From Halosimplex halophilum (GTDB lineage: Archaea; Halobacteriota; Halobacteria; Halobacteriales; Haloarculaceae), in the NCBI RefSeq assembly GCF_004698125.1, contig NZ_SRHV01000006.1, positions 124,001 through 188,000 on the forward strand: a stretch of 64,000 nt of DNA, written 5' to 3'. The position numbers and the translations under genes were made by a program. Shown piece by piece: positions 3 through 44,958 of this stretch (within the stretch, counting starts at the first letter, position 1; the number at the start of each line of letters is the position of its first letter). The notes under the pieces are model-generated. The model was not told where the DNA came from. It worked only from the letters and a program-made list of their open reading frames with translations, and did no database searches.

Positions 3-1082
3 ATCTACCAGACGGTCGGCGACACCGTCGGGCCGGGCGGCACCTTCCGTGCCCTGCGGTCGATCCCGCAGTACCGGGAGATCGCCGCGGCCGTCCGCGA
101 GCAGTGTCCCGACGCGTGGGTGTTCAACTTCACCAACCCGATGACCGTCTGCACGCGCACGCTCTACGAGGAGTACCCCGACATCAACGCCGTCGGGGTC
201 TGCCACGAGGTGTACCACGTCCAGGACTGGCTGACCGACCTCGCCGAGCGACACCTCGGGGTCGAGGGCGCGACCTACGACGAGGTGGACGTGACGGTCA
301 AGGGCATCAACCACTTCACCTGGATCGACGAGGCGCGCCTGCGGGGGACGGACCTCTTCGAGGCCGTCGACGCCGAACTCGCGGCGCGGGACCCGCCCGA
401 ATACGAGCCCGGGGACCCCGAGGTAGCCGACCAGAGCGTCTTCGCGACCAACCACGAGGTCACCTTCGACCTCTACCGCCGGTACGGGATCCTGCCGGCC
501 GCGGGGGACCGGCACCTCGCGGAGTTCGTCCCGTGGTATCTCGACCCCGTCGAGGCGCCCGAGGACATCCACCGCTGGGGGATCAGGCTCACGCCCAGCG
601 AGTACCGCGTCGAGTCCTGGCCCGAGGCCGAGCGCGAGCGCGAGGCGCTGCTGTCCGGCGACGAGCCCATCGACGTGGCCGCGCCGAACGAGGAGATGGT
701 CGACCTGATGGCCGCGCTGCTGGGCGGCGAGGCCGTCAAGTCCAACGTCAACGTCCCGAACCGCGGGCAGATCCCCGACCTCCGGGAGGGATGCGTCGTC
801 GAGACGAACGTTCTGTTCACCGAGGACTCGGTGACGCCGCTGACGGCCGGACCGCTCCCCGACCAGGTCCGCAGCCTCGTCGAGACCCACGTCACCAACC
901 AGGAGACGCTGATCGAGGCCGGCTTCGCCGGCGACCTGGACCTGGCGTTCCGGGCGTTCCGCAACGAGCCGCTCGTCACGCTGGACCCCGCCGAGATCGA
1001 GGCACTGTTCGCGGACCTCGTCGAGGCCGAACGGGAGTACCTCGACGCCTACGACATCGCGGGCGCCGACGTGCTCTCCTGA
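3..1082 (+). CDS. GH4-family glycosidase, 5' end outside window
   Basis: The reading frame is open from base 3, so the start and the N-terminal Rossmann motif lie before the window; 359 residues are visible. GH4 hallmarks are visible: GDTVGPGG, RALRSIP and NFTNPM near the beginning, then GVCHEV (the Cys that ligates Mn in this family) and GINHFTW (the family His). GH4 enzymes are cytoplasmic NAD- and Mn-dependent glycosidases acting by redox elimination; members cleave alpha-galactosides, alpha-glucosides, alpha-glucuronides or alpha-galacturonides. In this pectin-rich neighbourhood an alpha-galacturonidase or alpha-galactosidase is plausible, but substrate cannot be read from the sequence. 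No signal peptide can be judged because the N-terminus is missing. The esterase gene follows 117 bp downstream on the same strand. Confidence 0.88.
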   Translation: MYQTVGDTVGPGGTFRALRSIPQYREIAAAVREQCPDAWVFNFTNPMTVCTRTLYEEYPDINAVGVCHEVYHVQDWLTDLAERHLGVEGATYDEVDVTVKGINHFTWIDEARLRGTDLFEAVDAELAARDPPEYEPGDPEVADQSVFATNHEVTFDLYRRYGILPAAGDRHLAEFVPWYLDPVEAPEDIHRWGIRLTPSEYRVESWPEAEREREALLSGDEPIDVAAPNEEMVDLMAALLGGEAVKSNVNVPNRGQIPDLREGCVVETNVLFTEDSVTPLTAGPLPDQVRSLVETHVTNQETLIEAGFAGDLDLAFRAFRNEPLVTLDPAEIEALFADLVEAEREYLDAYDIAGADVLS

Positions 1083-2284: not shown

Positions 2285-3058
2285 ATGGCAAACGCCGCGC
2301 GGAACGGGCCCGGACGCACGATCCGGTCGGTGGAGATAGCGTTCAATATCATCGACGTCCTCCAGGAGAAGGGCGGTGCGGGGGTGACGGAGCTGGCCGA
2401 CGAGCTCGACCACTCCAAGAGCACGATCCACAGCCACCTGCGGACGCTCGAGGACCGCGAGATCCTCGTCCGCGAGGGCGACGGCTACCGGCTGAGCCTC
2501 CGCATCCTCGACATGGCGACCCACGTCCGCGACCAGGTCGGGAACTACGACGTCATCAAGAGCGAGGTGGACACGCTCGCCGAGGAGACCGGCGAGATCG
2601 CCCAGTTCGGGATCGAGGAACACGGCAAGGTCTCGTACCTCTACAAGACGACCGGCGAGCGCGGGGTCGAGACGGCCTCGCGGGTCGGCACCCAGCAGCC
2701 GATGTACTCCACGTCGCTCGGCAAGACGATCCTCGCCTACCTCCCCGAGGAGCGCACCGAGGAGATCGTCCAGGCCCAGAGCTACGAGGAGCTGACGCCG
2801 ACGACCGTCACGAGCGCCGAGGAGCTGTACGAGGAGCTCGCGGAGATCCGCGAGCGCGGCTACGGCATCGACGACGAGGAGAACTTCGAGGGGCTGCGCT
2901 GCGTCGCCGCGCCGGTCAAAAACGAGGAGACCGTCCTGGGCGCCGTGAGCATCACCGGCCCGTCCAGCCGGTTCACCGTCGACCGCATCCACGACGAACT
3001 CTCCGACCAGGTGCAACGGGCCGCCAACGTCATCGAACTCAACACGAAGTTCGCGTAG
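2285..3058 (+). CDS. IclR-family transcriptional regulator
   Basis: 257 residues. Residues ~15-75 form the winged helix-turn-helix (AFNIIDVLQEKGGAGVTELA followed by HSKSTIHSHLRTLEDREIL), and residues ~85-255 form the IclR effector-binding domain (GERGVETASRVG, STSLGKTILAYLPE, GIDDEENFEGLRCVAAPV). IclR proteins bind a small metabolite and repress or activate nearby catabolic genes; the haloarchaeal pentose regulator XacR belongs to this family. It is the only classical DNA-binding regulator in the window, so it is the first candidate for controlling the pectin genes on either side. That role is inference. A longer overlapping frame beginning at 2275 is a shadow: the residues match the family only from this ATG. 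Confidence 0.93.
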   Translation: MANAARNGPGRTIRSVEIAFNIIDVLQEKGGAGVTELADELDHSKSTIHSHLRTLEDREILVREGDGYRLSLRILDMATHVRDQVGNYDVIKSEVDTLAEETGEIAQFGIEEHGKVSYLYKTTGERGVETASRVGTQQPMYSTSLGKTILAYLPEERTEEIVQAQSYEELTPTTVTSAEELYEELAEIRERGYGIDDEENFEGLRCVAAPVKNEETVLGAVSITGPSSRFTVDRIHDELSDQVQRAANVIELNTKFA

Positions 3059-3076: not shown

Positions 3077-5026
3077 CTACGCCCGGTCCCACGGGGCGGC
3101 GTACGTCGGGTCGTCGACGAACCGGTCCATCGCCGCCGAGACCGAGACGCGCGTCCCGCTCGGCAGCGCGACCCGGAGCGCGTCCGCTCCCGCACCGGTC
3201 CCCGGATCCGCGTCGCCCTCGGTGTCCGCGCCGCCCTCTGCTCCCGTCCCTGCGTCGGGTGCCTCGCCGTCCACTTCGACGGCGGTGAACTCGTGTTCGC
3301 CGTACGCGCCGGCCTGCGTGACCACTTCCTGGTCCCGGGGCCCGGTGTTGACGAGCGTCAGGTCGATCCCCTCCGAGTCGATCCGTTCGACGAGCGCGGC
3401 GACGCCCGCCGGGAGCCCGGGGCGCTCGCGGCCCGGGTCGAAGTGGCGGACCTGCGCCATCACCAGCCCGCCGTAGTAGACGGGCTGTGGCGCGCCCATC
3501 GTGAGGTTGAGCAGGCCGCGGTGGAAGACGGGGTTGCGGTCCCGCAGGTAGTCCTCGTTCAGCGTGTCGGGCTCGCGGCCCTCCTCGCGCATCCCGTCGA
3601 GTAGCTCCTGGGCGTGCGTGCGGTTCGCCTCCAGCACCCGCTCGGGGAACTCGGGGAACTCCCCCTCCAGGTAGGCGAGCCAGGGCCACTCGTTGCCGGC
3701 GCCGTGTTTCGACGAGGGGCGCACGTCGACCTGCTTCCACTCGCGGGAACCCCAGTCCCGGAGCCGTTCGACCCGCTCGCGGTCGGCCTCGTCCAGCGAC
3801 ATGTACCAGAGGTGGAACAGGTACGGGTCGTCGCGGTGGGGCTTGAACTCGTACCAGCCGTCGCGCCACAGGATCTCCCCGTCGTCCTCGCGCAGGCCCG
3901 AGCCGTTGTAGTGGTAGTCGCCCTCGCCGCCGTACTTGTGGGGGATGTAGAGCGTGTCGCCCCGCTCGATCCCCTCGTCGACGAGGTGGTCGAGCTGCCG
4001 GCGGTGGAAGTCGAGGTGGTCGCGGTCGCCCGTCAGGAGCGTGGCGTTCTCGGCGGCGGTCGTGGTGCCGACGCCGACGTAGTGCCAGCCGCCCCACGAC
4101 CAGCCGTACATGCCGCCCCACCACTTCCCGTCGGTGTACTCGCCGATCTCGTCGGAGAGGCCGACGTTGTCGGGGATGATCCCGTCGTTGCGGTCGACGC
4201 GGTCGCGCCAGGCCTCCAGGTACTCCGTGACCCACTCCCGGTAGTCGTCGTCGCCGGTGTGGAGGTAGGCGTTGGTCATCAGGCTGGAGATGGCGAGATT
4301 GAGGGGGACGTCCCCCTTCGAACAGCGCTCCTCGTAGACCTCGAACAGCCGCCCTTCGTTGTCCGGGTCCAGCAGTTCGGTCGCGTTGTCGAACTCCAGG
4401 TCCCGCCAGGGGAGGCCGTGGCTCGCCCAGCGGTAGTCGGCGCCGTAGCCGCCGAACGTCGACTGCGCGCCGAACGCCGAGAGGTCGCTGTACTCCGGGC
4501 CTGCGCTGCCGTTCATCGGCGCGCGGACGAGCCGTTGCTCGGCGTCGTAGTTGTCCAGGTCGCTGTCGGCGAGGTACATGTCGGCGAAGCGGGTCGCGCG
4601 CTCGACGACGAGGTCGTCGCCGGGCGCGGCCAGCCCCATGTTGTAGGTGAAGAGGTTGCCCTCGCCGAGGTGGAACCAGTCCCGACACTGCTCGAACTCG
4701 TCGACGACCATCGGGTGGCCGTGGGGCGTGTCCGTCCGCTCGAAGCGGGCCAGCGCCCCCTCGTAGGCGTCGCGGGCGCGGGTCAGCAGCGACTCGTCGC
4801 CGCCCATCGCGTAGACGAGCGGCCAGTTGTAGAAGCCCTCGATCACGTCGTCGTAGCCGTCGACGCCGACGTGGTCGTCGGGCGGCCAGTACGGTTCCCC
4901 GTTCTCGTCGAGGTAGTCGTCGACGAAGTCGTCGACCGCGCGCTCGAAGCAGTCGAACAGCGCCCGCTGGCGCGTCGCCCACTCGGGCGGCTGGGCGACC
5001 GAGCGACGCGCCGCTAGCTCGTACAT
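3077..5026 (-). CDS. Unknown-family protein, probable helical-toroid carbohydrate enzyme
   Basis: 649 residues, no signal peptide. I do not recognise the family. The sequence is rich in Trp, Tyr, His and acidic residues arranged in helical stretches, e.g. GFYNWPLVYAMGG, DWFHLGEGNLFTYNMG, KWWGGMYGWSWGGWHYVGVG and LYIPHKYGGEGDYHYNGSG, as seen in (alpha/alpha)6-7 toroid glycosidases and polysaccharide lyases. Residues ~560-630 hold a short beta-rich tail with an acidic Gly/Asp-rich insert. The chosen start is MYELAARR: the frame is open further upstream, but an AT-rich TATA-like TTCAATTG lies 25-30 nt before this ATG. It lies between the IclR gene and a secreted pectate lyase, so it is probably a cytoplasmic enzyme acting on pectin-derived oligomers. 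A role in uronic-acid oligomer cleavage is speculation. Confidence 0.75.
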   Translation of the reverse strand: MYELAARRSVAQPPEWATRQRALFDCFERAVDDFVDDYLDENGEPYWPPDDHVGVDGYDDVIEGFYNWPLVYAMGGDESLLTRARDAYEGALARFERTDTPHGHPMVVDEFEQCRDWFHLGEGNLFTYNMGLAAPGDDLVVERATRFADMYLADSDLDNYDAEQRLVRAPMNGSAGPEYSDLSAFGAQSTFGGYGADYRWASHGLPWRDLEFDNATELLDPDNEGRLFEVYEERCSKGDVPLNLAISSLMTNAYLHTGDDDYREWVTEYLEAWRDRVDRNDGIIPDNVGLSDEIGEYTDGKWWGGMYGWSWGGWHYVGVGTTTAAENATLLTGDRDHLDFHRRQLDHLVDEGIERGDTLYIPHKYGGEGDYHYNGSGLREDDGEILWRDGWYEFKPHRDDPYLFHLWYMSLDEADRERVERLRDWGSREWKQVDVRPSSKHGAGNEWPWLAYLEGEFPEFPERVLEANRTHAQELLDGMREEGREPDTLNEDYLRDRNPVFHRGLLNLTMGAPQPVYYGGLVMAQVRHFDPGRERPGLPAGVAALVERIDSEGIDLTLVNTGPRDQEVVTQAGAYGEHEFTAVEVDGEAPDAGTGAEGGADTEGDADPGTGAGADALRVALPSGTRVSVSAAMDRFVDDPTYAAPWDRA

Positions 5027-5210
5027 ACCCCACACAGCGGGACACACGCAATTGAACGTTTGGGTGGGGGCACGGGCGACCGGGTTCGGTCCGGGAGCCC
5101 GTCCGGTCCGGCGACCGGGCCGGTCGGGCAACCGGTTCCGTCGATCGATAGTCGAGCGCCCGGCGTCGACGCGACCGCCGCCCGCACGGCGGGAGGGGTC
5201 CCCCGGTCGC

Positions 5211-7367
5211 TCAGGGCGGACTGGCGTCCGGGTCCTCGACCGCCAGCGCCCACTGGTCGACCCACTCGCGCAGGCCGCTGTCCGGCACCGACAGCGAGCG
5301 GGTGTTCTCGGGCAGTTGCGGGTAGCCGCCGACCTCCTCGTGGTCGGCGATCCAGTAGTCGTACGGCGAGTCGGTGTACGGGTCGCCGGCGCGGTTCTCG
5401 ATCTCCGAGACGATCCGCGAGTCGTTGCTCGTCCGGTCCGCCGGGCGGGCGCCGGCGTAGCTCAGGTTGTGGCTCTCCACGTCGCCCGCGGGCATCGCGG
5501 AGAACCCGCTCGGCCACAGCGGCCGCGAGGACAGCTCCGAGGTGCCGCCGGTCAGCGGCGTCGACTCGGGGTCGGTCACGTTGTCCGCGAGGTAGGCGTT
5601 GCCGCCCTCGATGACGGTGTCGCCGAGGTCCTGCGGGGCGTAGACGTTGCCGACGATGGACGCCTCCGTGTCGTCGTCCATGTTCGTCGCCTCGTTGAAG
5701 AAGTACATCACGTTGTTGGCGACGGCGCTGCGCGTGCCGGACTTCAGTCGCGGGACGCGGCCGCGCGTCTTCGCCCAGACGTTGCCCAGCAGCGCGACGT
5801 TGTCGGCGCCGTCGCCGACCAGCGTCGCGTAGTTGTGGTCCGAGCCGTCGCCGTAGGGGTCGTACAGCCCCTCGTAGACCAGGCAGTTCGAGAGGGTCGT
5901 GTCGGTCGTGTCGTAGCCGACGGACATGCACTCGTCGACGCCCCACGACGCCGTGCAGTGGTCGAAGATGTTGTTCGTCGTCCCGTCGGCGCTGTTGATC
6001 GAGTCGTTGCCCTGAATCGACCCGCTGTCACCGGGCCCGACCCGCGAGCGGACGTGCTGGACGACGCAGTCGTTCGCGCTGACCTGGAACAGCCCCTGCG
6101 TGAGCGTGATCCCCGGCGAGGGCGCCGTCTGGCCGGCGATCCAGCAGCGGTCGTTCGTCACTTCGAGCGGGTCCCCGCCGAGGTCGATCGTCCCGCTGGT
6201 CTCGAAGACGACCAGCCGCGGGCCGCTCGCCTGCACGGCGTCTTCGAGCGCGCTCCGGGTCGCCTCCGTCACCCGGTGGACGGTGACGCCGTCGTCGAAC
6301 CACGAGGCGTCGGCGAAGCCGTCCTCGTAGTGGACGTACGACCCCTCCCCGGACGGGGTGGTGTCCCCGCCGTCGTCGCTCCCGGTCGTGAAGGTGTTCG
6401 TCGACCCGGTCGCGGTGTCGCCGTCGCTGGCAGCGGCGGTCGCGCGGAACTCGTAGTCCGTCCCGCCCGCGAGCCCTGAGACGGGCTCGCTGTAGCTCCC
6501 CGGCGACGACAGCGACTGTCCGGGCGTCGCCGTCCAGTCGCCGCCCGACTCGCGGTACTCGAAGGCCGCCTCGGCCGACGCGGCGCCGCCCAGGTCGTCC
6601 ACGCTCCCCGCGAGCGTCGCCGACGACGTGTCGACCTCGGACGCCGAGCCCGTCGAGACGACCGGGTCGGTGTCGCCGCCGGTGCCGCCGTCTCCCGAAT
6701 CCGTGGCGACGCTGCCCGCGACCTCCACGTCGCCGATGTCCCCGTTGCTGTCGGGGGAGAGCCCGGCGAGGTTCGAGAACTGCGCGGTCGTCAGCGTCCC
6801 CTGGTCGTGGCTACAGACGGCCAGCCCGACGTAGGCGCTCCCGGCGAAGTCGATCTCCCCCGGCGAGATGTCGGCGATGAGCGTCCAGTCGCTCCCGTCG
6901 GTCGACCCGTAGGCCTCGATGGTCTCGCCCGACCGGACGAGCCGCTGCCAGTCCGCCGCCAGCGTCCCGCCGGCGACCTCCGCCTCGTCGGTCCCGCCCG
7001 ACGTGGTGCTCTGTGCGTCCACGCCGTCGTCCGACCGCCACTGGACGGAGGTCTCGTGGCCGGGCGTCTTCCGGATCATCGCGTGCTCGGCGTCGTCGTT
7101 CAGCGTCTGCCTGACCATCAGGCCCGCGCGCGCCCAGTCGTCGGTGTCCGCCAGGCTGTCGACCCGGACGGTCACGTCGAAGTCGCCCTCGACCTCCGTG
7201 TAGTAGTAGTGGAACTCGTCGGTCGCCGACCAGATGTCGTAGCCCGCGCCCTCGACCGTTATCGTCGTCGCCCCCGCGACGCTGCCGGCCGCGCAGGTCG
7301 ACGCCAGTGCGCCTGTCGTCCCGAGCCCGAGGGCCCGGAGGAACGTGCGTCTATCGTGGTCTGTCAT
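5211..7367 (-). CDS. Secreted pectate lyase with beta-sandwich and FN3-like modules
   Basis: 718 residues. The N-terminus DRRTFLRALGLG is a Tat signal; no clear lipobox follows. Residues ~33-185 form a DUF1349-like beta-sandwich (YDIWSATDEFHYYYTEVEGD, RAGLMVRQ, GLAVCSHD), probably carbohydrate-binding. Residues ~205-320 resemble a fibronectin type III fold, and ~330-715 are a right-handed beta-helix pectate lyase. Lyase signatures include WIAGQTAPSPGITLTQG, FDHCTASWGVDE and GRVPRLKSG, whose Arg-x-Pro-Arg matches the catalytic Arg region of PL1-type lyases. The enzyme should cleave de-esterified homogalacturonan outside the cell by beta-elimination. The ATG of MTDHDRRT is preferred over one eight codons upstream because it begins the Tat signal. 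The gene at 32813 has the same three-part layout. Confidence 0.88.
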   Translation of the reverse strand: MTDHDRRTFLRALGLGTTGALASTCAAGSVAGATTITVEGAGYDIWSATDEFHYYYTEVEGDFDVTVRVDSLADTDDWARAGLMVRQTLNDDAEHAMIRKTPGHETSVQWRSDDGVDAQSTTSGGTDEAEVAGGTLAADWQRLVRSGETIEAYGSTDGSDWTLIADISPGEIDFAGSAYVGLAVCSHDQGTLTTAQFSNLAGLSPDSNGDIGDVEVAGSVATDSGDGGTGGDTDPVVSTGSASEVDTSSATLAGSVDDLGGAASAEAAFEYRESGGDWTATPGQSLSSPGSYSEPVSGLAGGTDYEFRATAAASDGDTATGSTNTFTTGSDDGGDTTPSGEGSYVHYEDGFADASWFDDGVTVHRVTEATRSALEDAVQASGPRLVVFETSGTIDLGGDPLEVTNDRCWIAGQTAPSPGITLTQGLFQVSANDCVVQHVRSRVGPGDSGSIQGNDSINSADGTTNNIFDHCTASWGVDECMSVGYDTTDTTLSNCLVYEGLYDPYGDGSDHNYATLVGDGADNVALLGNVWAKTRGRVPRLKSGTRSAVANNVMYFFNEATNMDDDTEASIVGNVYAPQDLGDTVIEGGNAYLADNVTDPESTPLTGGTSELSSRPLWPSGFSAMPAGDVESHNLSYAGARPADRTSNDSRIVSEIENRAGDPYTDSPYDYWIADHEEVGGYPQLPENTRSLSVPDSGLREWVDQWALAVEDPDASPP

Positions 7368-7400
7368 CGTGTACCACAACAGACCGCACAAATGGACGTT

Positions 7401-7558: not shown

Positions 7559-8278
7559 TCAGTCCTCGCGGTTCGCGGGTTCGACCTCGCCCCAGACGGC
7601 GTCGCTGCCCTCGGTGGGCGCCGCCCACCCGACGGCGTTGGCGATGACCCGCTGGACCTCGTCCTGGTAGAGGATCGGGTACTCCTCGTGACCGGGACGG
7701 AACGCGAAGATCCGGCCGCGACCGCGCCGGTAGCACAGCCCCGACCGGAACACCTCGCCGCCCTCGAACCACGAGATGAACACCGTCCGGTCGGGTTCGG
7801 GCACGTCGTAGGGCTCGCCGTACATCTCCGTCGCGGGGATCTCGAACGACTCGGGGAGGCCGTCGGCGATGGGATGGCCGGGGTCGGCGACCCAGACCCG
7901 CTCGGTCTCGCCGCCGTGGCGGTACTTGATGTTACACGTGGTCCCCATCAGCCGTTTAAATGGCTTGGAGTTCTTCCCGGAGTGCAGCGGGACGAAGCCC
8001 ATGCCCTCGTGGACGCGGTCGACCACGCGGTCCGCGACCTCGTCGCTCAGCTCGTCGTTGGCGCAGTGGGACCACCAGACCAGCACGTCCGTCTCCGCGA
8101 GCACGGTCTCGGGGAGCCCGTGTTCGGGTTCGTCGAGCGTGGCCGTGCGCGTCTCGAAGCCGCGCTCGGAGAGCGCGTCGGCGACGGCCCCGTGGATGCC
8201 GTCCGGGTACCGCTCGGCGACCGCCGGCTCCTCGCGCTCGTGGACGTTCTCGTTCCAGACGGTGACCTGTAGCGTCAT
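7559..8278 (-). CDS. ThuA-like domain protein
   Basis: 239 residues, no signal peptide. It matches the ThuA family (class-I glutamine-amidotransferase-like flavodoxin fold): [10 protein letters not shown] at the start, [34 protein letters not shown], then [19 protein letters not shown] at the end. ThuA was named for trehalose utilisation in rhizobia, and members recur in bacterial and archaeal sugar-degradation clusters, often near Gfo/Idh oxidoreductases; their biochemical role is not well established. Three Gfo/Idh genes occur elsewhere in this window. It lies on the same strand as the pectate lyase gene that follows, 191 bp on. Function here is undetermined beyond sugar catabolism by association. 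Confidence 0.88.
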
Positions 8279-9369: not shown

Positions 9370-10617
9370 ATGGACATCGCCAGCGTCGACAGCTACGCGC
9401 TCTCGTCACCGATCGACCCGCCGCAGGACCGGCGGTTCCACGGCGGGACCCGCCGGCTGCTGAAGCGGGACGTGGTCCTCGTCGTCGTCGAGACGGCCGA
9501 CGGCCGACAGGGGTTCGCGACCGCCGGCGCGAGCAGCTCCGCGATGACGGAGTACTTCGAGGGCGACTCGCAGGGCACCTTCGCCGACATCGTGACGGGA
9601 CCGGTCGCCGACGCGCTCGAAGGCGAGCGGATCGAGGCGATCCCCGAGGCCCACGATCTGATCCGCGAGGGGTCGGTCCCGGCGGGCGACGTGACCGAGG
9701 CCATCTCGGCGGTCGACGTGGCGCTGTGGGACCTCCGCGGGAAGGAACACGGCGTCCCGGTCTACGAGCTGCTCGCTGAGGAGTACGGCACCGACCCGAC
9801 GCTCGAACTCCCCCTCTACGCCAGCGCCGGGATGTACATGGAACCGGAGGGCTTCGCCGACCAGGCGGAGCTCATCGAGGATCTGGGCTTCTTCGGCTAC
9901 AAGTACCGCCCCGGGATCGGTCCCGACGGCGACCGCCGGACGGTCGAGTTGCTCGCCGACCGGCTGACCGAGACCGAGTTCATGCTCGACGTGCACACGT
10001 GGTGGAAACTCGGCGAAGCGTACGGACGGGAGACGGTGCGCGACCTGATCGCCCACGCCGGCGAGCGCGGCGCCTGCTGGGTCGAGGAGCCGGTCGAACC
10101 GGACGACCACGAGGGGTACGTGGAACTGGCCGAGACGGGCGCGCCGCTGGCCGGCGGCGAGAGCGAGGAGACGCCCGAGGGCCTCGTCGAACTCGGGGAG
10201 ACCGGCGCCGTCTCGTTCCTCCAGGGCGACGTGCGCCACCACGAGGGGTTCACCGGCTGTCGGGCCGCCGTCGAGTTCTGCGCCGGTCGTGACGACGTCG
10301 AGTTCGTCCCGCACAACTTCGGGACGTGGATCGGCCTCGCCGCCAACGCCCACCTCGTCGCCGCCGCCCCGGACACCCGGCTGCTGGAGTATCCCGTCTT
10401 CGAGGACGACCCCGCGCTGGCCGACGTGGACGGCGACCCCGGGATGTACCCCTTCGACCTCGCGTTCGACCTGATCGAGGGCCAGCCCGACATCGACGAC
10501 GGCGTCCTCTCGGTGCCCGAGGGTCCCGGCCTGGGTATCGAGGTCGACCTCGACGTCGTCGAGGAGTACCCGTTCGTCGACGGGCCGTGGACCGAGTTCC
10601 ACTACGACGACGAGTAG
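9370..10617 (+). CDS. Enolase-superfamily (MR/MLE) sugar-acid dehydratase
   Basis: 415 residues, cytoplasmic. Family signatures: AVDVALWDLRGKEHGVPVYE in the capping/barrel junction, the general-base segment YKYRPG (Lys178), and metal ligands Asp207 (MLDVHTWW), a Glu in WVEEPVEPDD (239/240) and Glu264 (AGGESEE), followed by PHNFGTWIG near the end of the barrel. Enzymes of this group abstract the proton alpha to a carboxylate, most often dehydrating aldonates or aldarates to 2-keto-3-deoxy acids. It stands opposite a DHDPS-family gene that would use such a product. The exact acid (galactarate, glucarate, xylonate, rhamnonate) is not determinable from sequence. The start follows AT-rich DNA with a TTTAAG box about 28 nt upstream. 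Confidence 0.88.
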   Translation: MDIASVDSYALSSPIDPPQDRRFHGGTRRLLKRDVVLVVVETADGRQGFATAGASSSAMTEYFEGDSQGTFADIVTGPVADALEGERIEAIPEAHDLIREGSVPAGDVTEAISAVDVALWDLRGKEHGVPVYELLAEEYGTDPTLELPLYASAGMYMEPEGFADQAELIEDLGFFGYKYRPGIGPDGDRRTVELLADRLTETEFMLDVHTWWKLGEAYGRETVRDLIAHAGERGACWVEEPVEPDDHEGYVELAETGAPLAGGESEETPEGLVELGETGAVSFLQGDVRHHEGFTGCRAAVEFCAGRDDVEFVPHNFGTWIGLAANAHLVAAAPDTRLLEYPVFEDDPALADVDGDPGMYPFDLAFDLIEGQPDIDDGVLSVPEGPGLGIEVDLDVVEEYPFVDGPWTEFHYDDE

Positions 10618-10775: not shown

Positions 10776-11714
10776 CTACTCGATGAGTCGGTTGATGTCG
10801 TCGTCGAGCCGGTCGTAGAGTTCGGCGGCCCGCTCCTCCTGGTCGGGCGTCAGCGGTCGGATGGGCTCGCGCACGTCGCCGCCGTTGAGGCCGGCGAGTT
10901 CCAGGCCCTCCTTGACCGCGGCGACGCTGGAGGCGCCGGGGATGGTGTTTTGCTGCCCGGTCTCGTCGCGGAACCGCTGGTAGGGGAGACAGATGTTGCG
11001 TAGCTCGCGGGCCCGTTCCCAGTCTTCGGCCTGCAGGGCGTCGAACAGCGCGAGGCCGACCTCCGGGCGGAAGTTGCTGACCCCGGCGGAGAACCCCTCG
11101 ACGCCCTCGGCCCAGAACGCGACCGCGTACGGTTCGGCGAGGCCGTCGACCCAGACCACGTCGTCGGCGCCCGCCGCGATCCCCGCGCCGAGTTTCACGG
11201 CGTCCTCCAGCGCGTACTTGACGCCGACGACGCCGTCGACGCGGGTCAGGTCGGCGAGGTAGTCGACCGACGGGTCGAACCCGCGGACGTACGGGACCAG
11301 CGGGCGGTCGCTCGCGGCGTCGAGCGCCTCGTAGTACTCGATCAGGCCCTGCTCGTGGAGGTAGGTGTGGTCCGGGGGCATGACCATCATCGCGTCGACC
11401 CCGTGGCGGTCGTAGGCCCGGATCAGCTCCGTCGCGTCCGCGGTGCTCCCGCCGACGCCGGCCAGGACGCAGGCGTCCTCGGGCAGCGCCTCGACGCTCG
11501 CCTTCGCGATGTCGACGCGCTCGTCCTGGGAGAGGGAGTGATACTCGCTGATGTTCGCAGTGGCGAGAAACGTCCGTATCCCCTCGTCGTAGAGCGCTCC
11601 CGCGTTCTCCGCGAGTTCGTCGTAGTCGATTTCCGAGGAGTCGTCGAACGGGGTCAGAAGACCGACGGCAACCCCTCTGAGACGCTCCCGTATCTGGTCG
11701 TCAGACATACGCAT
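10776..11714 (-). CDS. DHDPS/KDG-aldolase family enzyme, copy 1
   Basis: 312 residues. Class-I aldolase TIM barrel of the DapA superfamily: Schiff-base Lys166 in VVGVKYALED and Tyr142 in PYVRGFDP. Relatives include dihydrodipicolinate synthase, KDG aldolase and 5-dehydro-4-deoxyglucarate dehydratase; given the uronate dehydrogenase nearby, the last is favoured but unproven. An oddity is the loop ATANISEYHS where the family normally has a GGTGE-type carboxylate-binding motif; copy 2 keeps CGNTGEYY. The ATG of MRMSDDQ is preferred because TTTATCTA lies 26 nt before it; an ATG five codons upstream would sit only 11 nt from that box. The next gene upstream is copy 2 on the same strand, but with its own promoter. 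Confidence 0.87.
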   Translation of the reverse strand: MRMSDDQIRERLRGVAVGLLTPFDDSSEIDYDELAENAGALYDEGIRTFLATANISEYHSLSQDERVDIAKASVEALPEDACVLAGVGGSTADATELIRAYDRHGVDAMMVMPPDHTYLHEQGLIEYYEALDAASDRPLVPYVRGFDPSVDYLADLTRVDGVVGVKYALEDAVKLGAGIAAGADDVVWVDGLAEPYAVAFWAEGVEGFSAGVSNFRPEVGLALFDALQAEDWERARELRNICLPYQRFRDETGQQNTIPGASSVAAVKEGLELAGLNGGDVREPIRPLTPDQEERAAELYDRLDDDINRLIE

Positions 11715-11736
11715 GATCCCAAGATCCATGTCCTGT

Positions 11737-14024: not shown

Positions 14025-14081
14025 GTTTCTAGCGGGTCGGAGGACTGTCGCCGGCGTGGAGCGAGAAGCGCTCCGGGACCG

Positions 14082-14092
14082 ATATTTTGATA
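14082..14092 (+). promoter_or_regulatory. TATA-like box of the uronate dehydrogenase gene
   Basis: ATATTTTGATA is centred about 28 nt upstream of the ATG at 14116, so this gene has its own leaderless promoter despite following another + strand gene closely. Confidence 0.55.
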
Positions 14093-14115
14093 GGCGGACG
14101 CGTCCGGGATGTGGT

Positions 14116-14955
14116 ATGGACGTGTTAGTCACCGGTGCGTACGGTCGGTGCGGGACCGCGCTGATCGACCACCTGGACGGCGACGACCGCTACGAGTTCA
14201 CCTACTACAACCGCTCCGACCGGCCCGACGACCACCCCTACGGCGGGTACGACACGATCGTCGGCAACGTCACGGAGAAGGGGAAACTCCGCGAGGCCGC
14301 CGAGGGCCGCGACGCGATGGTCCACATGGCCGCCTACCCGAGCCCGAGCGGCGACTGGACCGACGTGTTCGAGCCCAACATCGTCGGGACGTACAACGCC
14401 CTGGAGGCCGCCCGGGAGGAGGAGCTGGAAACGTTCGTCTTCCTCTCGACGAACCACGTCGTGGGGCTCTACGAGACCGAGCACGCCCCCGAGTTGTACG
14501 AACGCGACTACAGCCTCGTCGTCGACCACACCGATCCGGTCCGCCCCGATTCGTACTACGGCGCCTCCAAGAGCTTCGGCGAGGACCTGGCCCGCTACTA
14601 CGTCGAGGCGTTCGAGTACCCCAAGCGGGTGTACAACCTCCGCGTCGGCACGGTCAACATGCCAGAGTACGACCACCCCTACGGCAACGCCGAGTCCGGC
14701 GTCGACGACGGCGACTGGGAGCGCGGGAGCCCGGAGTACGAGCGGGCCGTCGCGCGGATGAAGTGCACCTGGCAGTCCCGCCGGGACTTCGCCCACGAGG
14801 TCGAGTGCTGCCTCGACGACGAGACCGTCGAGTTCGGGACCTTCTACGGCGTCAGCGACAACCAGCGCCGCTGGTTCGACCTCGAACACGCCCGGTCGCG
14901 CATCGACTACAACCCGCAGGACGACGGCGACGAGTGGGACGGGCCGCCCGCCTGA
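14116..14955 (+). CDS. udh: NAD-dependent uronate dehydrogenase-like SDR
   Basis: 279 residues, cytoplasmic. Extended short-chain dehydrogenase fold: nucleotide loop GAYGRCG (7-13), substrate loop FLSTNHVVGLYE and the catalytic pair Tyr148/Lys152 in YYGASKSFGED. The segments STNHVVG, NLRVGTVN, CTWQSRRDFAHEV and YGVSDNQRRWFD are the pattern seen in uronate dehydrogenases (EC 1.1.1.203), which oxidise galacturonate or glucuronate to the aldaro-lactone with NAD+. This is the entry step of the oxidative hexuronate route; the lactonase at 16205 and MR/MLE dehydratases on both sides would supply the next steps. A related sugar epimerase or pentose dehydrogenase is the main alternative. Confidence 0.82.
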   Translation: MDVLVTGAYGRCGTALIDHLDGDDRYEFTYYNRSDRPDDHPYGGYDTIVGNVTEKGKLREAAEGRDAMVHMAAYPSPSGDWTDVFEPNIVGTYNALEAAREEELETFVFLSTNHVVGLYETEHAPELYERDYSLVVDHTDPVRPDSYYGASKSFGEDLARYYVEAFEYPKRVYNLRVGTVNMPEYDHPYGNAESGVDDGDWERGSPEYERAVARMKCTWQSRRDFAHEVECCLDDETVEFGTFYGVSDNQRRWFDLEHARSRIDYNPQDDGDEWDGPPA

Positions 14956-18504: not shown

Positions 18505-19380
18505 ATGGACCGGCGCGCCTTTCTCGCGACAGCAGCGGCAGTCACGGCCGGGTGCGGACAGGCCGGCAGTTCCGGGACGCCCACCGACGGGGCCGGGACG
18601 GCGACCGACACACCCGCGGAATCGCCAACCGACACACCGACCGAGACGCCGACAGCCGCGCCCCCCTCGGTCCAGGTGACCGACGTGTCGGCCCCCTCCG
18701 GGATCGAGATCGGAACGAACGGGACGCTCTCGGTGACGCTGGAGAACGCCGGCGGACGTGAGGGACAGTTCTCCGCACCCGTCGAGGCGCGGATCGGGAC
18801 CGGCGCCTGGGCGACCACCGGGAGGACGGTGTCGGCGGCCGTCCCAGCCGGCGAGTCGGTCACCGAGACCGTCGACCTCCCGCCGAACGACCACGTCGAA
18901 CCGGCCTCGTACCGGCTGGCCGAGGCCGACCCCGTCGCGCGGACCCGCTTCGTCGCCCGGGAGCTATCGCTCGGCGAGGCGCACACGCTCCCGAACGGCG
19001 TCGCCCTCTCGGTCGAGGCCGCCGAGTTCGCCGAGGCGTACACCTACGAGGGCGAGGACGGGGAGACGACCCTCGCGCCGACCGACGGCGAGAAGTGGGC
19101 CGTCGGGACGCTCCGGGCGGAGAACACCGCCGACGAGACGGCGCGGGCGCCGCTGATCTCCGACATCGCCCTCTTCCGCGGGGAGCAGGAGTTCTCACAC
19201 CACTACGCCGGCGACAACCGCGACCGCTACCGCGGCGGCGACCTCGCCGCCGGCGCGGTCAGCGAGGGCGACCTCCCGACCGACGTGCCCCTGGACGCCG
19301 ACCGGAGCGACCTCAGAGTCGAGTACAGCGAGGCGCTCGACGACGGCCGGGTGACGGTGCGCTGGTCGCTCACCGACTGA
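18505..19380 (+). CDS. Tat lipoprotein with CARDB-like and DUF4352-like domains
   Basis: 291 residues. The start MDRRAFLATAAAVTAGC has a Tat twin-Arg motif and a lipobox ending in Cys17. Residues ~20-52 are a Thr/Pro-rich, glycosylation-prone linker, ~55-140 look like a CARDB-type beta domain (VQVTDVSAPSGIEIGTNGTL, GESVTETVDL), and ~150-290 resemble the DUF4352 telokin-like fold. Such proteins are common on haloarchaeal membranes and are of unknown function. The gene is divergent from the MR/MLE-lactonase unit with only 78 bp between starts, but nothing in its sequence suggests sugar binding. Confidence 0.8.
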   Translation: MDRRAFLATAAAVTAGCGQAGSSGTPTDGAGTATDTPAESPTDTPTETPTAAPPSVQVTDVSAPSGIEIGTNGTLSVTLENAGGREGQFSAPVEARIGTGAWATTGRTVSAAVPAGESVTETVDLPPNDHVEPASYRLAEADPVARTRFVARELSLGEAHTLPNGVALSVEAAEFAEAYTYEGEDGETTLAPTDGEKWAVGTLRAENTADETARAPLISDIALFRGEQEFSHHYAGDNRDRYRGGDLAAGAVSEGDLPTDVPLDADRSDLRVEYSEALDDGRVTVRWSLTD

Positions 19381-35136: not shown

Positions 35137-36669
35137 TCAGACCCAGTCGCCGTCGGGCCGTTCGACGCCCTCGGCCAGGTCGCCGTGGTTGCCCGCGAGG
35201 GAGAGTCGGCCGGCGTCGTCGCCGCGGACTCGCAGGAACGGTCCCTCGCCGGCCCACTCGCAGCCGCTCACGAGCGTCTCGTCCACGTCGCGGAGTTCGA
35301 CGACGGGCGTCTCCTGGTCGGGGTCGACGTGGAGGCCGTCGATGGAGACGCGCCCGGTCTCCTCGAAGGCGAGCGCCGGCGCCTCGGCCGTCCGGATCCG
35401 GACGTTCGAGAAGGAGATGTCCTCGATGGACTTGCAGAACAGGCCGTGGCGCTGGTCGAAGCCGTCGGCCATCGCCGGCGAGAGGTCCGTCGAGTCCAGC
35501 GGGCGAGTCGCGTCGATCTCGACGTTCGAGAAGGAGACGTTCTCGAAGCGCTGCTCGGGGAGGCCGGCGAAGAAGCCCGCCGTCTCGACGTTCCGGGCGG
35601 TGATGTTCGAGTAGGCGACGTTGCGGACCATCGGCGTCGACTCGTCGACGGGGATCGGGTCGCTGTCGATGTCCATGAAGTAGTAGCCGTTGATGGTAAA
35701 GGGGCAGGCGACCCGCCGCATGACGATGGTGTCGAAGCGCAGGTCCTCGACGACGCCGCCCCGGCCGCGCTGGGTCTTGATGCGGATGCCGCGGTCGGTG
35801 TCGGTGAACGTGCAGTTGCTGACGGTCACGTCGCGCACGTCGCCGGACATCTCCGAGCCGATGACGACGCCGCCGTGGCCCGCCTCGACCGTGCAGTTCG
35901 TCACGGTGATCTGTGAGGCGGGCCGACCCACTTCTCGGCCCTCCTCGTCCTTGCCTGACTTGATGCAGATGGCGTCGTCGCCGGCGTTGAGGTAGCAGTC
36001 GCTGACCCGGACGTACCGCGAGGAGTCGATGTCCATCCCGTCGCCGTTCGGGGCATCGTGGGGATTCTCGATGTTCACGTCGTGGAACGTGACGTTGTCC
36101 GAGTAGACGACGTGGGTGTTCCAGAACGGCGAGTTCCGGAGCGTGACCCCCGAGACGGAGACGTTCTTCGAGCGGTCGATCTGGAACAGGGGCGGCCGGA
36201 GCGTGAAGCTGCTCACGTCGTCGGCCTTGTCGTTGGCCGCGTGGAACTCGTCGAGACGGGCCGCGAGCGACTCCGGCAGCTCGTCGTCGTCGACGCCGTA
36301 GAACTGCCACCAGTAGTCGCCCTGGCCGTCGACGGTGCCGCGGCCGGTGATCTCGACGTTCTCGGCCGCCTCGACGAGCAGACAGGGGTGAAAGCCGGTC
36401 TGTTCCCACCCCTCCCAGCGGCCCTCCCGGGCGGGGAACGCCTCGTGGTCGCGGACGAACCGCAGCGTCGCGCCCGCCTGCAGTTCGAGGGTCGTGTCGC
36501 CCCCGACGGTCAGCGGTCCGGTCAGGTACTCGCCGGGCGGGACGACGACGGTCCCGCCCGCGTCGGCGCAGTCGTCGAGCGCGGACTGCAGGGCGGCCGT
36601 GTCCCGCTCGTCGCCGGTGCCGGACGCACCGAAGTCTCTCACGTCGCGTGTCCCGTCGCTGTCTGTCAT
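35137..36669 (-). CDS. GH28 polygalacturonase family, cytoplasmic
   Basis: 510 residues with no signal peptide. The beta-helix carries all four GH28 motifs: NGDGMD (208-213, Asp210), GDD (230-232), GHG (264-266) and RIK (296-298), with VRDFGASGTGDERDTAALQ at the N-terminal cap. The Asp residues are the catalytic acid and bases for hydrolysis of alpha-1,4-galacturonosyl bonds; exo-acting and rhamnogalacturonan-specific members also exist. Being intracellular, it should act on imported oligogalacturonides rather than polymer. Its TATA box TTTATAG sits in the short gap after the pectinesterase gene, so it has its own promoter although the genes are 37 bp apart on the same strand. Confidence 0.92.
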   Translation of the reverse strand: MTDSDGTRDVRDFGASGTGDERDTAALQSALDDCADAGGTVVVPPGEYLTGPLTVGGDTTLELQAGATLRFVRDHEAFPAREGRWEGWEQTGFHPCLLVEAAENVEITGRGTVDGQGDYWWQFYGVDDDELPESLAARLDEFHAANDKADDVSSFTLRPPLFQIDRSKNVSVSGVTLRNSPFWNTHVVYSDNVTFHDVNIENPHDAPNGDGMDIDSSRYVRVSDCYLNAGDDAICIKSGKDEEGREVGRPASQITVTNCTVEAGHGGVVIGSEMSGDVRDVTVSNCTFTDTDRGIRIKTQRGRGGVVEDLRFDTIVMRRVACPFTINGYYFMDIDSDPIPVDESTPMVRNVAYSNITARNVETAGFFAGLPEQRFENVSFSNVEIDATRPLDSTDLSPAMADGFDQRHGLFCKSIEDISFSNVRIRTAEAPALAFEETGRVSIDGLHVDPDQETPVVELRDVDETLVSGCEWAGEGPFLRVRGDDAGRLSLAGNHGDLAEGVERPDGDWV

Positions 36670-36706: not shown

Positions 36707-37633
36707 TCACTCTCCGGCGGACGCGAGCCGCTCCCCGGGGTCCCAGTCGCCGAAGACGGTCGCGAGCGTGTACTCGTCGGCTTCGCTCCCGGACAGCTGG
36801 TGGGACCACGCGACCCGGTCGTCCGGCCGGTACCCCGGCCCGTCGTTGCCGTACTCGGCGTAGAACGCCGTCTCCTCCTTGTCGGGGTCGTCCCAGTTGT
36901 GCCAGCCGGCGGGTTCGACGTGGGGGCCGAGATACGAGTGCAGGAAGACCGTCCGGGCGTGAGGGCGCCACGGGCGGCCGAGGTAGAACGACTCGGCGTC
37001 GTCGTCGCCGCACACGTCGCAGTCGCGGAAGACGAGGCCGAAGTCGTCGGCGGCGGGCGTCGAGGCGGCGGTGACGTAGCCGCTCTCGCCCTTGCAGACG
37101 ACCTCGCAGCCGTCGAAGACGGCCGTCGCCCAGCCGAAGACGAAGTCGACCGTCCCCTCGACGTAGCAGTCGCGGTAGTACTGCCGGCTGTCTTCGCCGT
37201 GGACGTAGAGCGTGTCCTGATTGCCGAGGAACCGACAGTTCTCGAAGACGGCGCGGTCGCCGTCGACGCGGGTCGCGACCGCCTGCCCGACCCGTCCCGC
37301 GCTGTTCTCGAACGCGAGGTCGCGGGCGGTGAAGTCGTCGCCGAACAGGAAACAGCTCGACGACTCGGTCGTCCCCATCGGCTCGCCGAACCGGTTCTCC
37401 TTGCCGTTGTAGTCGTCGTGCGTGAGGACCGTCTCCTCGGGGCCCTCGCCGACGAGCGTCACGTTCGTCTTCGAGGTCGGGACGACGAGTTTCTCCTCGT
37501 AGCGCCCCGCCCGGACGAGTATCCGCGTCTCGGCGTCCCGGAAGTCCGGGACGGCGTCGACCGCGGCCTGTACCGTCTCGAACGTCCCGTTCCCGTCGCT
37601 GGCGACGACGAAGTCGTAGTCGTGGTCGGGCAT
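36707..37633 (-). CDS. CE8 pectinesterase, cytoplasmic
   Basis: 308 residues, beta-helix without signal peptide. CE8 catalytic motifs are present: GQAVA with Gln117, GNQDTLY with Asp140, VDFVFG with nucleophile Asp163 and YLGRPW with Arg220. The enzyme removes methyl groups from galacturonosyl residues. An intracellular location implies that methylated oligomers are imported and demethylated before or while the GH28 enzyme cleaves them. It lies 45 bp downstream of the galactonate-dehydratase-type gene; a weak TATA-like ACTTTGG ~30 nt before the ATG leaves open whether it shares that transcript. Confidence 0.92.
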   Translation of the reverse strand: MPDHDYDFVVASDGNGTFETVQAAVDAVPDFRDAETRILVRAGRYEEKLVVPTSKTNVTLVGEGPEETVLTHDDYNGKENRFGEPMGTTESSSCFLFGDDFTARDLAFENSAGRVGQAVATRVDGDRAVFENCRFLGNQDTLYVHGEDSRQYYRDCYVEGTVDFVFGWATAVFDGCEVVCKGESGYVTAASTPAADDFGLVFRDCDVCGDDDAESFYLGRPWRPHARTVFLHSYLGPHVEPAGWHNWDDPDKEETAFYAEYGNDGPGYRPDDRVAWSHQLSGSEADEYTLATVFGDWDPGERLASAGE

Positions 37634-43590: not shown

Positions 43591-44958
43591 ATGGACTCGG
43601 ATCTATCGAGGGATTCGCTCGCGGTCCCGGAGGCGGCGATCGGCGAGGCCTGCGGCGAGACACCGCTGCCGGAGCTAGGCGTGATCGAGCAGGTCTGGGA
43701 GACCGACCCGATACCGACCGACGAGATCGCCGAGCGGGCCGGCGAGGCGTTCGCGTCGCTGCCGCTCGACGAGGTCCCCGACGGCGGGGAGATCGCCATC
43801 GGCGCCGGGAGCCGCGGCATCGCGAACCTCGCGGAGATCGTGGCGGGCGTCGTCGCGGAAGCCCGGGATCGAGGCTACGAACCGTTCGTGTTCCCGGCGA
43901 TGGGCAGCCACGGCGGCGCGACTGCCGAGGGCCAGCGGGAGATGCTGGCGGAACTCGGCGTCGACGAGGAGACCGTCGGCTGCGAGATCCGGTCGAGCAT
44001 GGACGTGGTCGAGGTCGGGCGGACCGAAGACCGCGACGTTCCCGTCGTCGCCGACGCGAACGCCGTCGCGGCCGACGCGATCGTCCCGATCAACCGGGTG
44101 AAGCCCCACACCGACTTCGACGGGACCGTCGAGAGCGGGCTCTCGAAGATGCTCGTCATCGGGATGGGCAAACAGCGCGGCGCCAAGACCGCCCACGACT
44201 GGGCGGTCGACTGGTCGCTGCGGAACATGATCCCCGAGATCACCGAACGCCTGCTGGACGAGTTGCCGGTCGTCGGCGGCGTCGCGATCCTCGAAGACCA
44301 GCGCGACGACACCGCGCTGCTGGAGGGCGTCCCGCCCGAAGGCTTCCTCGACCGCGAGGCCGAACTACTGGAGCGGGCCTACGACGAGATGCCGACGCTC
44401 CCGTTCGACGACATCGACGTGCTCGTCCTCGACCGGCAGGGCAAGGACATCAGCGGCCAGGGGATGGACACGAACGTCATCGGCCGCCGGCCGTTCGCGA
44501 TCCAGGAGCCCGAGCCCGACACGCCCGAGATCAAGCGGATCTACACCCGCGGGCTGACCGAGACGACCCACGGCAACGCGATGGGGATGGGGTCGGCCGA
44601 CTTCGTCCACGCGGACCTGCTCGCGGGGATCGACATGCCGACGACGCTGATCAACGCGCTGACCGCGAGCACGACCCGCGGCGTCCGGCTCCCGCCGGCC
44701 GTCGAGACCGACCGCGCGGGGTTGATCGCGGCGCTGTCGACCATCGGCATCGTCGACCCCGAGACCGTGCGGGTGGTCCGGGCCCCCGACACGATGCACC
44801 TCCAGCGCCTCTACGCCTCGCCGGCGCTCGTCGACGAGGCGCGCGAGCGGGACGACCTCCGCGTCGTCGCCGAGCCCTCGCCCGTCGAGTTCGAGGACGG
44901 CGAGTTCGCGGCGCCGCCGGCCCACGAGGCGGTCGCCGACGGGTCGGGTGAGGACTGA
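43591..44958 (+). CDS. LarA-like (DUF2088 superfamily) hydroxy-acid racemase candidate
   Basis: 455 residues, cytoplasmic. Conserved blocks of the lactate-racemase-like superfamily are visible: GGEIAIGAGSRGIANLAEIV, PFVFPAMGSHGGATAEGQRE, INRVKPHTDFDGTVESGLSK, MLVIGMGKQRGA and a late TRGVRLPPAV. Classical LarA racemises lactate using a nickel-pincer cofactor made by LarB/C/E, whose genes are not seen here. Many LarA-like proteins act on other 2-hydroxy acids such as aldonates. It is divergent from the FAH gene with a compact two-promoter spacer, so both probably serve the same sugar-acid route. Conversion of L-lactate from rhamnose breakdown or epimerisation of an aldonate are two possibilities. 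The family call is firm, the reaction is not. Confidence 0.75.
   Translation: MDSDLSRDSLAVPEAAIGEACGETPLPELGVIEQVWETDPIPTDEIAERAGEAFASLPLDEVPDGGEIAIGAGSRGIANLAEIVAGVVAEARDRGYEPFVFPAMGSHGGATAEGQREMLAELGVDEETVGCEIRSSMDVVEVGRTEDRDVPVVADANAVAADAIVPINRVKPHTDFDGTVESGLSKMLVIGMGKQRGAKTAHDWAVDWSLRNMIPEITERLLDELPVVGGVAILEDQRDDTALLEGVPPEGFLDREAELLERAYDEMPTLPFDDIDVLVLDRQGKDISGQGMDTNVIGRRPFAIQEPEPDTPEIKRIYTRGLTETTHGNAMGMGSADFVHADLLAGIDMPTTLINALTASTTRGVRLPPAVETDRAGLIAALSTIGIVDPETVRVVRAPDTMHLQRLYASPALVDEARERDDLRVVAEPSPVEFEDGEFAAPPAHEAVADGSGED

Follow-up and report, generated by a model that had tools for sequence, protein, structure and literature searches.

A predicted alpha/alpha-toroid protein family of haloarchaea and bacteria in the company of pectin and hexuronate genes

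A 649-residue protein encoded in a 64,000-nucleotide stretch of Halosimplex halophilum DNA (contig NZ_SRHV01000006.1, positions 124,001–188,000; hereafter the window) is best read, on the strength of structural models, as a member of a new alpha/alpha-toroid CAZyme family with a C-terminal beta-sandwich, new with respect to Pfam, NCBIfam, PHROGs and the PDB. Its fold class and gene context are of already known kinds; judged by sequence, its family appears to be undescribed in these libraries and in the papers searched. We put it slightly above even odds that these proteins, common to haloarchaea, Actinomycetes and Alphaproteobacteria, represent the first members of a new glycoside hydrolase (or lyase) family that would free uronic or related acid sugars and fill the oligogalacturonide step in haloarchaea where GH88/105 and PL22 are missing. 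The narrower reading, that the protein is an exo-acting galacturonide hydrolase, is given a probability of just under one half (about 0.48).

A conserved gene without counterpart in family libraries

The coding sequence occupies window positions 3077–5026 on the minus strand, with an ATG at 5026 and a stop after residue 649; the product begins MYELAARRS and carries KWWGGMYGWSWGGWHYVG as residues 301–318. A longer frame with an upstream TTG (3077–5131) is also open, and the ATG at 5026 was taken as the start because full-length relatives begin at the same methionine. GC content at third positions is 0.95 and the encoded composition is acidic, in a source genome of 4.47 Mb with 69% GC in the window. 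The nearest named relatives come from Halosimplex (83–88% identity), and relatives of 60–88% identity contain no internal stops. Third-position differences prevail and dN/dS against four relatives is 0.23–0.34, by which measures the gene is under purifying selection. Open frame, shared start, homologues and dN/dS thus support the ORF as a real gene, as had been assumed from the letters alone.

Pfam and NCBIfam gave no match to the protein up to E 10, PHROGs gave none, and PDB sequences, compared with the protein alone or as a profile, gave no meaningful one. A Pfam scan of 32 family members returned chance-level matches only, sets of 25 or 32 members, searched against Pfam and the PDB, gave nothing above chance, and the model found no match among BFVD viral structures at E ≤ 0.001. 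The protein had originally been placed in no known family, a view borne out by these results; a contradicting match to a characterised non-carbohydrate family was also looked for, and searches of Pfam, NCBIfam and PDB sequences matched the protein to no characterised family of any kind. Nor is the family described in the papers searched, which deal with pectin use by haloarchaea, with galacturonidases and with newly defined hydrolase families.

Homologues were identified in 22 of 292 haloarchaeal genomes of the class, 19 of them intact and three decayed. In the class to which a Propionibacteriaceae relative belongs, 16 of 297 genomes, its own included, carry a homologue, and further ones are encoded by replicons of Nonomuraea, Streptomyces, Asticcacaulis and Sphingobium. 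Haloarchaeal members form one group in a maximum-likelihood tree (support 100/98; root drawn at midpoint only). Annotated haloarchaeal plasmid records and Asticcacaulis list the homologues as "hypothetical protein". One genome, G046, harbors two divergent copies (L006 and L008, 50% and 41% identity), which take basal positions within the archaeal group. The decayed copies (L054–L058, L060, L062 and L063 in G177, G195 and G298) are fragments or bear stops. L007 and L009, which had looked like potential remote relatives, were dropped because the family profile did not confirm them.

The gene lies within a locus of pectin and uronate genes

The original prediction had placed the gene between an IclR gene and a pectate lyase gene, and this arrangement is confirmed by profile scans. 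The IclR-family regulator gene (2285–3058, plus strand), with a sub-threshold match to KdgR (E 3.2e-42), lies downstream in tail-to-tail orientation; upstream and on the same strand, 5211–7391 encodes a DUF1349 plus PL1-type pectate lyase protein with a sub-threshold match to PelZ (E 1.8e-51), to which a second DUF1349 protein in the window is 47% identical. Profile scans further assigned the 3' part of a GH4 glycosidase gene that begins outside the window (120–1082, plus), an enolase-superfamily (MR_MLE) protein (9370–10617, plus), a DHDPS-family protein with a sub-threshold match to KdgD (10776–11729, minus), an Azf-like NAD-dependent epimerase-type protein as candidate uronate dehydrogenase (14056–14955, plus), a GH28 polygalacturonase (35137–36669, minus) and a pectin methylesterase (36707–37633, minus). 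A ThuA-like protein is encoded at 7559–8278 (minus). By Pfam, the window also encodes an SGNH esterase, a 7-bladed lactonase, an ABC transporter, UxuA, glycerate kinase, GH51, GH10 and GH78, and holds four enolase-superfamily proteins together with DHDPS/KdgD-like proteins. The description of the region as a locus of carbohydrate enzymes agrees with the GH4, GH28, PL1, pectin methylesterase, enolase-superfamily and KdgD-like proteins of the window.

Pectin use followed by the oxidative hexuronate route has been reviewed for bacteria, and the gene set of the window fits this scheme (PMC6353982). We infer that the archaeal window genes would carry out the oxidative steps, their matches to route enzymes falling below the NCBIfam equivalog cut-offs. 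As read from its gene content, the locus fits a role in homogalacturonan and hexuronate use.

Elsewhere in the window, a 455-residue ORF (43591–44958, plus), flanked by a FAH-family gene on one side and Gfo/Idh/MocA genes on the other, matches nothing in Pfam at E ≤ 0.001, in PDB sequences or in PHROGs, and an 80%-identical gene occurs in a Haladaptatus (L026) in the same gene company. A 291-residue ORF without Pfam match (18505–19380, plus) adjoins the ABC transporter genes.

Structural models predict an alpha/alpha toroid followed by a beta-sandwich

AlphaFold2 models were computed from a 25-sequence alignment (model 1; pLDDT 79.6, pTM 0.87) and from a 27-sequence alignment that includes bacterial members and leaves out plasmid-derived rows (model 2; pLDDT 85.5, pTM 0.91). 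Both consist of about a dozen alternating helices (residues 15–510) and seven subsequent strands (526–634). Together with structure searches, the models delineate a predicted alpha/alpha-toroid domain of about residues 14–520 (window 3467–4987, minus) and, by DSSP, a predicted seven-stranded C-terminal beta-sandwich of about residues 526–634 (3125–3451, minus), within which residues 592–609 are of low confidence.

Foldseek searches against the PDB retrieved almost exclusively toroid glycosidases and sugar epimerases (GH127, GH76, GH47, GH88/105, AGE), with best E values of 2.2e-5 for model 1 and 2.1e-4 for model 2, query TM scores of 0.2–0.34 and identities of 10–16%. Among these neighbors, GH127, GH88 and GH105 had been proposed as folds to compare, and GH76 and GH47 are equally among the best. 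VIA-align reached top Z scores of 14.9 (model 1) and 12.5 (model 2) with many rows tied, and a Z of 10–12.5 lies, by the tool's own warning, within the range for common helical arrangements. DSSP and both models are in line with a helix ring whose candidate inner helices begin at or just after invariant residues; judging from the models, the alpha/alpha-toroid class is likely.

GH127, GH76, GH47, GH88/105 and AGE toroids resemble the model about equally, and by sequence the protein belongs to none of them. Because Z scores tie among families and ranks change between models, no nearest family was singled out, and GH76, considered for that place, was rejected on these grounds. The tied scores span families of different chemistry, isomerases and epimerases included, and PL15/PL17-type lyases are not among the structural rows listed for the models. 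The supposed resemblance to a toroid glycosidase or lyase thus stands with respect to the predicted toroid and its glycosidase and epimerase neighbors; the scores do not narrow it to one family.

Invariant residues at or just before candidate inner helices

Across 32 archaeal and bacterial sequences, 31 alignment columns are invariant. They include R276 and also D59, E63, W117, H119, E122, D239, W302, Y307 and W309; these last nine lie just before or open candidate inner helices, the inner ring being assigned from helix alternation. D59 and E63 (4838–4852, this and the following on the minus strand) are invariant in 32/32 sequences and occupy the loop leading into candidate inner helix 68–74; W117, H119 and E122 (4661–4678) mark the start of candidate inner helix 121–133, and D239 (4310–4312) stands two residues before candidate inner helix 241–257. 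W302 and the Y307-G308-W309 loop (4100–4123) precede helix 314–332. This last motif had been taken for a helical repeat resembling an active site. Its helical nature is contradicted by both models, which put a loop there; its active-site-like character is retained, in that W302..Y307-G-W309 is invariant and invariant acids open candidate inner helices. Cysteines are neither invariant nor nearly so among the 32 members.

Pectin and uronate genes accompany the family across genomes

At least one of eight core neighbor families was found within 8 kb (less at contig ends) in 22 of 24 haloarchaeal loci: ThuA, the commonest, in 15, MR_MLE in 13, DapA in 12, PL1, IclR and GH4 in 11 each, GH28 in seven and uronate-dehydrogenase-like proteins in three. 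Company of pectin and uronate genes is kept in many genera and reaches into bacteria.

In a co-occurrence analysis of the 292 genomes, the GH28 subtype of the window (E < 1e-30) is present in 19/19 genomes with an intact homologue (target genomes) versus 3/273 others (Fisher p = 5e-27, a value inflated by relatedness, the 19 genomes representing 10 genera in three families); this cut-off was set afterwards at a natural gap from 1.8e-37 to 1.5e-19. The three genomes with a decayed homologue are devoid of that subtype, consistent with joint loss. PL1 relatives at E < 1e-40 and GH4 likewise occur in 19/19 intact-target genomes, GH4 also in several genomes without the family. GH88/105 is present in fifteen target genomes. 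Neither GH88/105 nor PL22 was found above cut-off in the window genome (G000), which has one sub-threshold PL22 match, or in G154, G215 and G258, so that these four miss a common oligogalacturonide-processing enzyme. KduI was detected in 0/25 genomes by a search that found it in controls.

Bacterial relatives extend this picture. In Asticcacaulis, the start of the homologous gene and the stop of an MFS transporter gene overlap, and kdgD adjoins the transporter gene; in Sphingobium, an MFS gene immediately precedes the homologue, with a KdgD-like (DHDPS-family) gene in the vicinity. Both proteins open with twin-arginine-type signals (MNRRHFLL..., MRVDRRSFLA...), of which none is evident by eye in haloarchaeal members. 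Signals and MFS/KdgD company in Alphaproteobacteria suggest an enzyme that supplies both the transporter and KdgD with an acid sugar. The neighbors in Actinomycetes comprise beta-helix proteins, sugar ABC transporters, aldo-keto reductases, amidohydrolase_2, RraA and MR_MLE proteins; since the aldo-keto reductase, amidohydrolase_2, RraA and beta-helix protein are not galacturonate-specific, the substrate may differ there. Proteins of 1357–1621 residues with a right-handed beta-helix are encoded near actinobacterial homologues (L108, L109, L110, L111, L116, L121), and both scanned members contain Ig-like domains.

Discussion

Starting from the computed family, models, conservation, gene company and co-occurrence, we infer a route in which hydrolysis and not elimination, exo action, a galacturonide substrate, the catalytic acids and the pathway direction are all putative. 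GH28, PL1 and pectin methylesterase would cut homogalacturonan outside the cell, and galacturonides would then be imported. The 649-residue protein, most likely cytoplasmic in Halosimplex, would act on them as an exo-acting glycoside hydrolase, and the freed D-galacturonate would pass through uronate dehydrogenase, lactonase, an enolase-superfamily dehydratase and a KdgD-like step. Catalysis may be carried out by acids at one toroid mouth, with D59, E63, E122 and D239 as candidates, and an aromatic wall of W302, Y307 and W309 together with H119 might bind the sugar. Hydrolysis is preferred because invariant acids are numerous and glycosidases abound among the structural neighbors, a saturated substrate because KduI is missing and the gene set is oxidative. 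GH4 and GH28 of the same locus could already free galacturonate, so the family may act otherwise, and Pfam scans of 32 members and profile comparisons with GH127 and GH88/105 revealed no sequence link to known glycosidases. Taken as a statement about the models and their context, the "new activity" of the original prediction is a well-founded candidate.

The nearby presence of PL1 raises an alternative on the substrate side, namely that the family processes PL1-made unsaturated oligogalacturonides, replacing GH88/GH105 hydrolases in genomes that miss them. PL1 relatives in all 19 target genomes, the four target genomes, that of the window included, with neither GH88/105 nor PL22 above cut-off, and a predicted toroid fold similar to GH88/105 speak for it. 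We regard it as unlikely, however, since KduI, which usually acts next on unsaturated uronate and was the enzyme searched for, was found in none of 25 genomes, since GH88/105 coexists with the family in fifteen target genomes, and since profile similarity to GH88/105 was not found. The chemistry could also differ: a toroid with a beta-domain is a layout shared by one kind of poly- and oligosaccharide lyase, and beta-elimination of uronides would agree with the uronate gene context and with invariant His, Tyr and Arg residues (H119, Y307 and R276 would suit a lyase). Several invariant acids suit a hydrolase better, and the listed structural rows are glycosidases and epimerases with no toroid/beta-sandwich lyase among them; we rate elimination as improbable.

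AGE-family scores equal to those of glycosidases, and neighbors that are mostly enzymes of free acid sugars, would also be expected of an AGE-like isomerase or epimerase with a free uronate or aldonate as substrate. This is very improbable in our estimation, as AGE enzymes lack the C-terminal beta-sandwich and the twin-arginine-type signals of homologues from Alphaproteobacteria hint at a role ahead of uptake. A different objection concerns novelty and overlaps with the other readings: some CAZy families may be without a Pfam model, and the protein could belong to one that is already catalogued. We consider this rather improbable given that no PDB chain matches in sequence and that homologues are annotated as hypothetical in haloarchaeal plasmid records and Asticcacaulis.

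A family without a model in Pfam, NCBIfam or PHROGs, present in both archaea and bacteria and linked to hexuronate catabolism, likely founds a new enzyme family. If the proposed galacturonide hydrolase is real, it would help to explain the end of pectin breakdown in haloarchaea that have pectinase genes and neither GH88/105 nor PL22. The haloarchaeal isolates tested carry pectinase genes, and growth on pectin or polygalacturonate has so far not been shown for them (PMC9726719). This counts against the pectin-use reading, and the 649-residue family bears on the puzzle that it poses.

Comparison with known toroid families

GH127/GH146 beta-L-arabinofuranosidases (HypBA1, 3wrg) gave the best Foldseek E value in both models with protein-long alignments, at a TM score of about 0.3 and an identity of 10–11%. 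GH127 relatives keep C404, C406 and C407 as alignment-invariant residues, in that family's cysteine cluster with the catalytic Cys, whereas the 649-residue family has no invariant cysteine, which disfavors a GH127-type mechanism. The GH127 profile (PF07944) matched neither the protein nor any of 32 members, and hhalign assigned 0.5% probability against a shallow template alignment. GH88/GH105 unsaturated uronyl hydrolases have the toroid fold that is predicted for the protein and share its pectin/uronate context, with Z scores for model 1 (14.7 for GH105, 14.1 for GH88) and model 2 (10.5–10.7) that tie with other toroid families. PF07470 matched the protein at no E up to 10 and the 32 members at no E up to 1; profile-profile comparison with haloarchaeal GH88/105 gave 2.2% probability, again with a shallow template alignment. 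The 649-residue protein is longer than these hydrolases and has a predicted C-terminal beta-sandwich.

GH76 and GH47 alpha-mannanases/mannosidases hold the top Z scores (GH76 14.9 in model 1, GH47 12.5 in model 2, all tied) at identities of about 14–16% and 7–12%, respectively, and differ in gene context; GH76 (PF03663) matched none of the 32 members, and GH47 (PF01532) matched one of 32 at E 0.19, as expected by chance. AGE-type sugar 2-epimerases and YihS isomerases, which have no sequence match to the protein, have the toroid fold that is predicted for it, with Foldseek scores similar to those of the glycosidases; they are single-domain enzymes of about 400 residues, to which plan the 649-residue protein adds a predicted C-terminal beta-sandwich.
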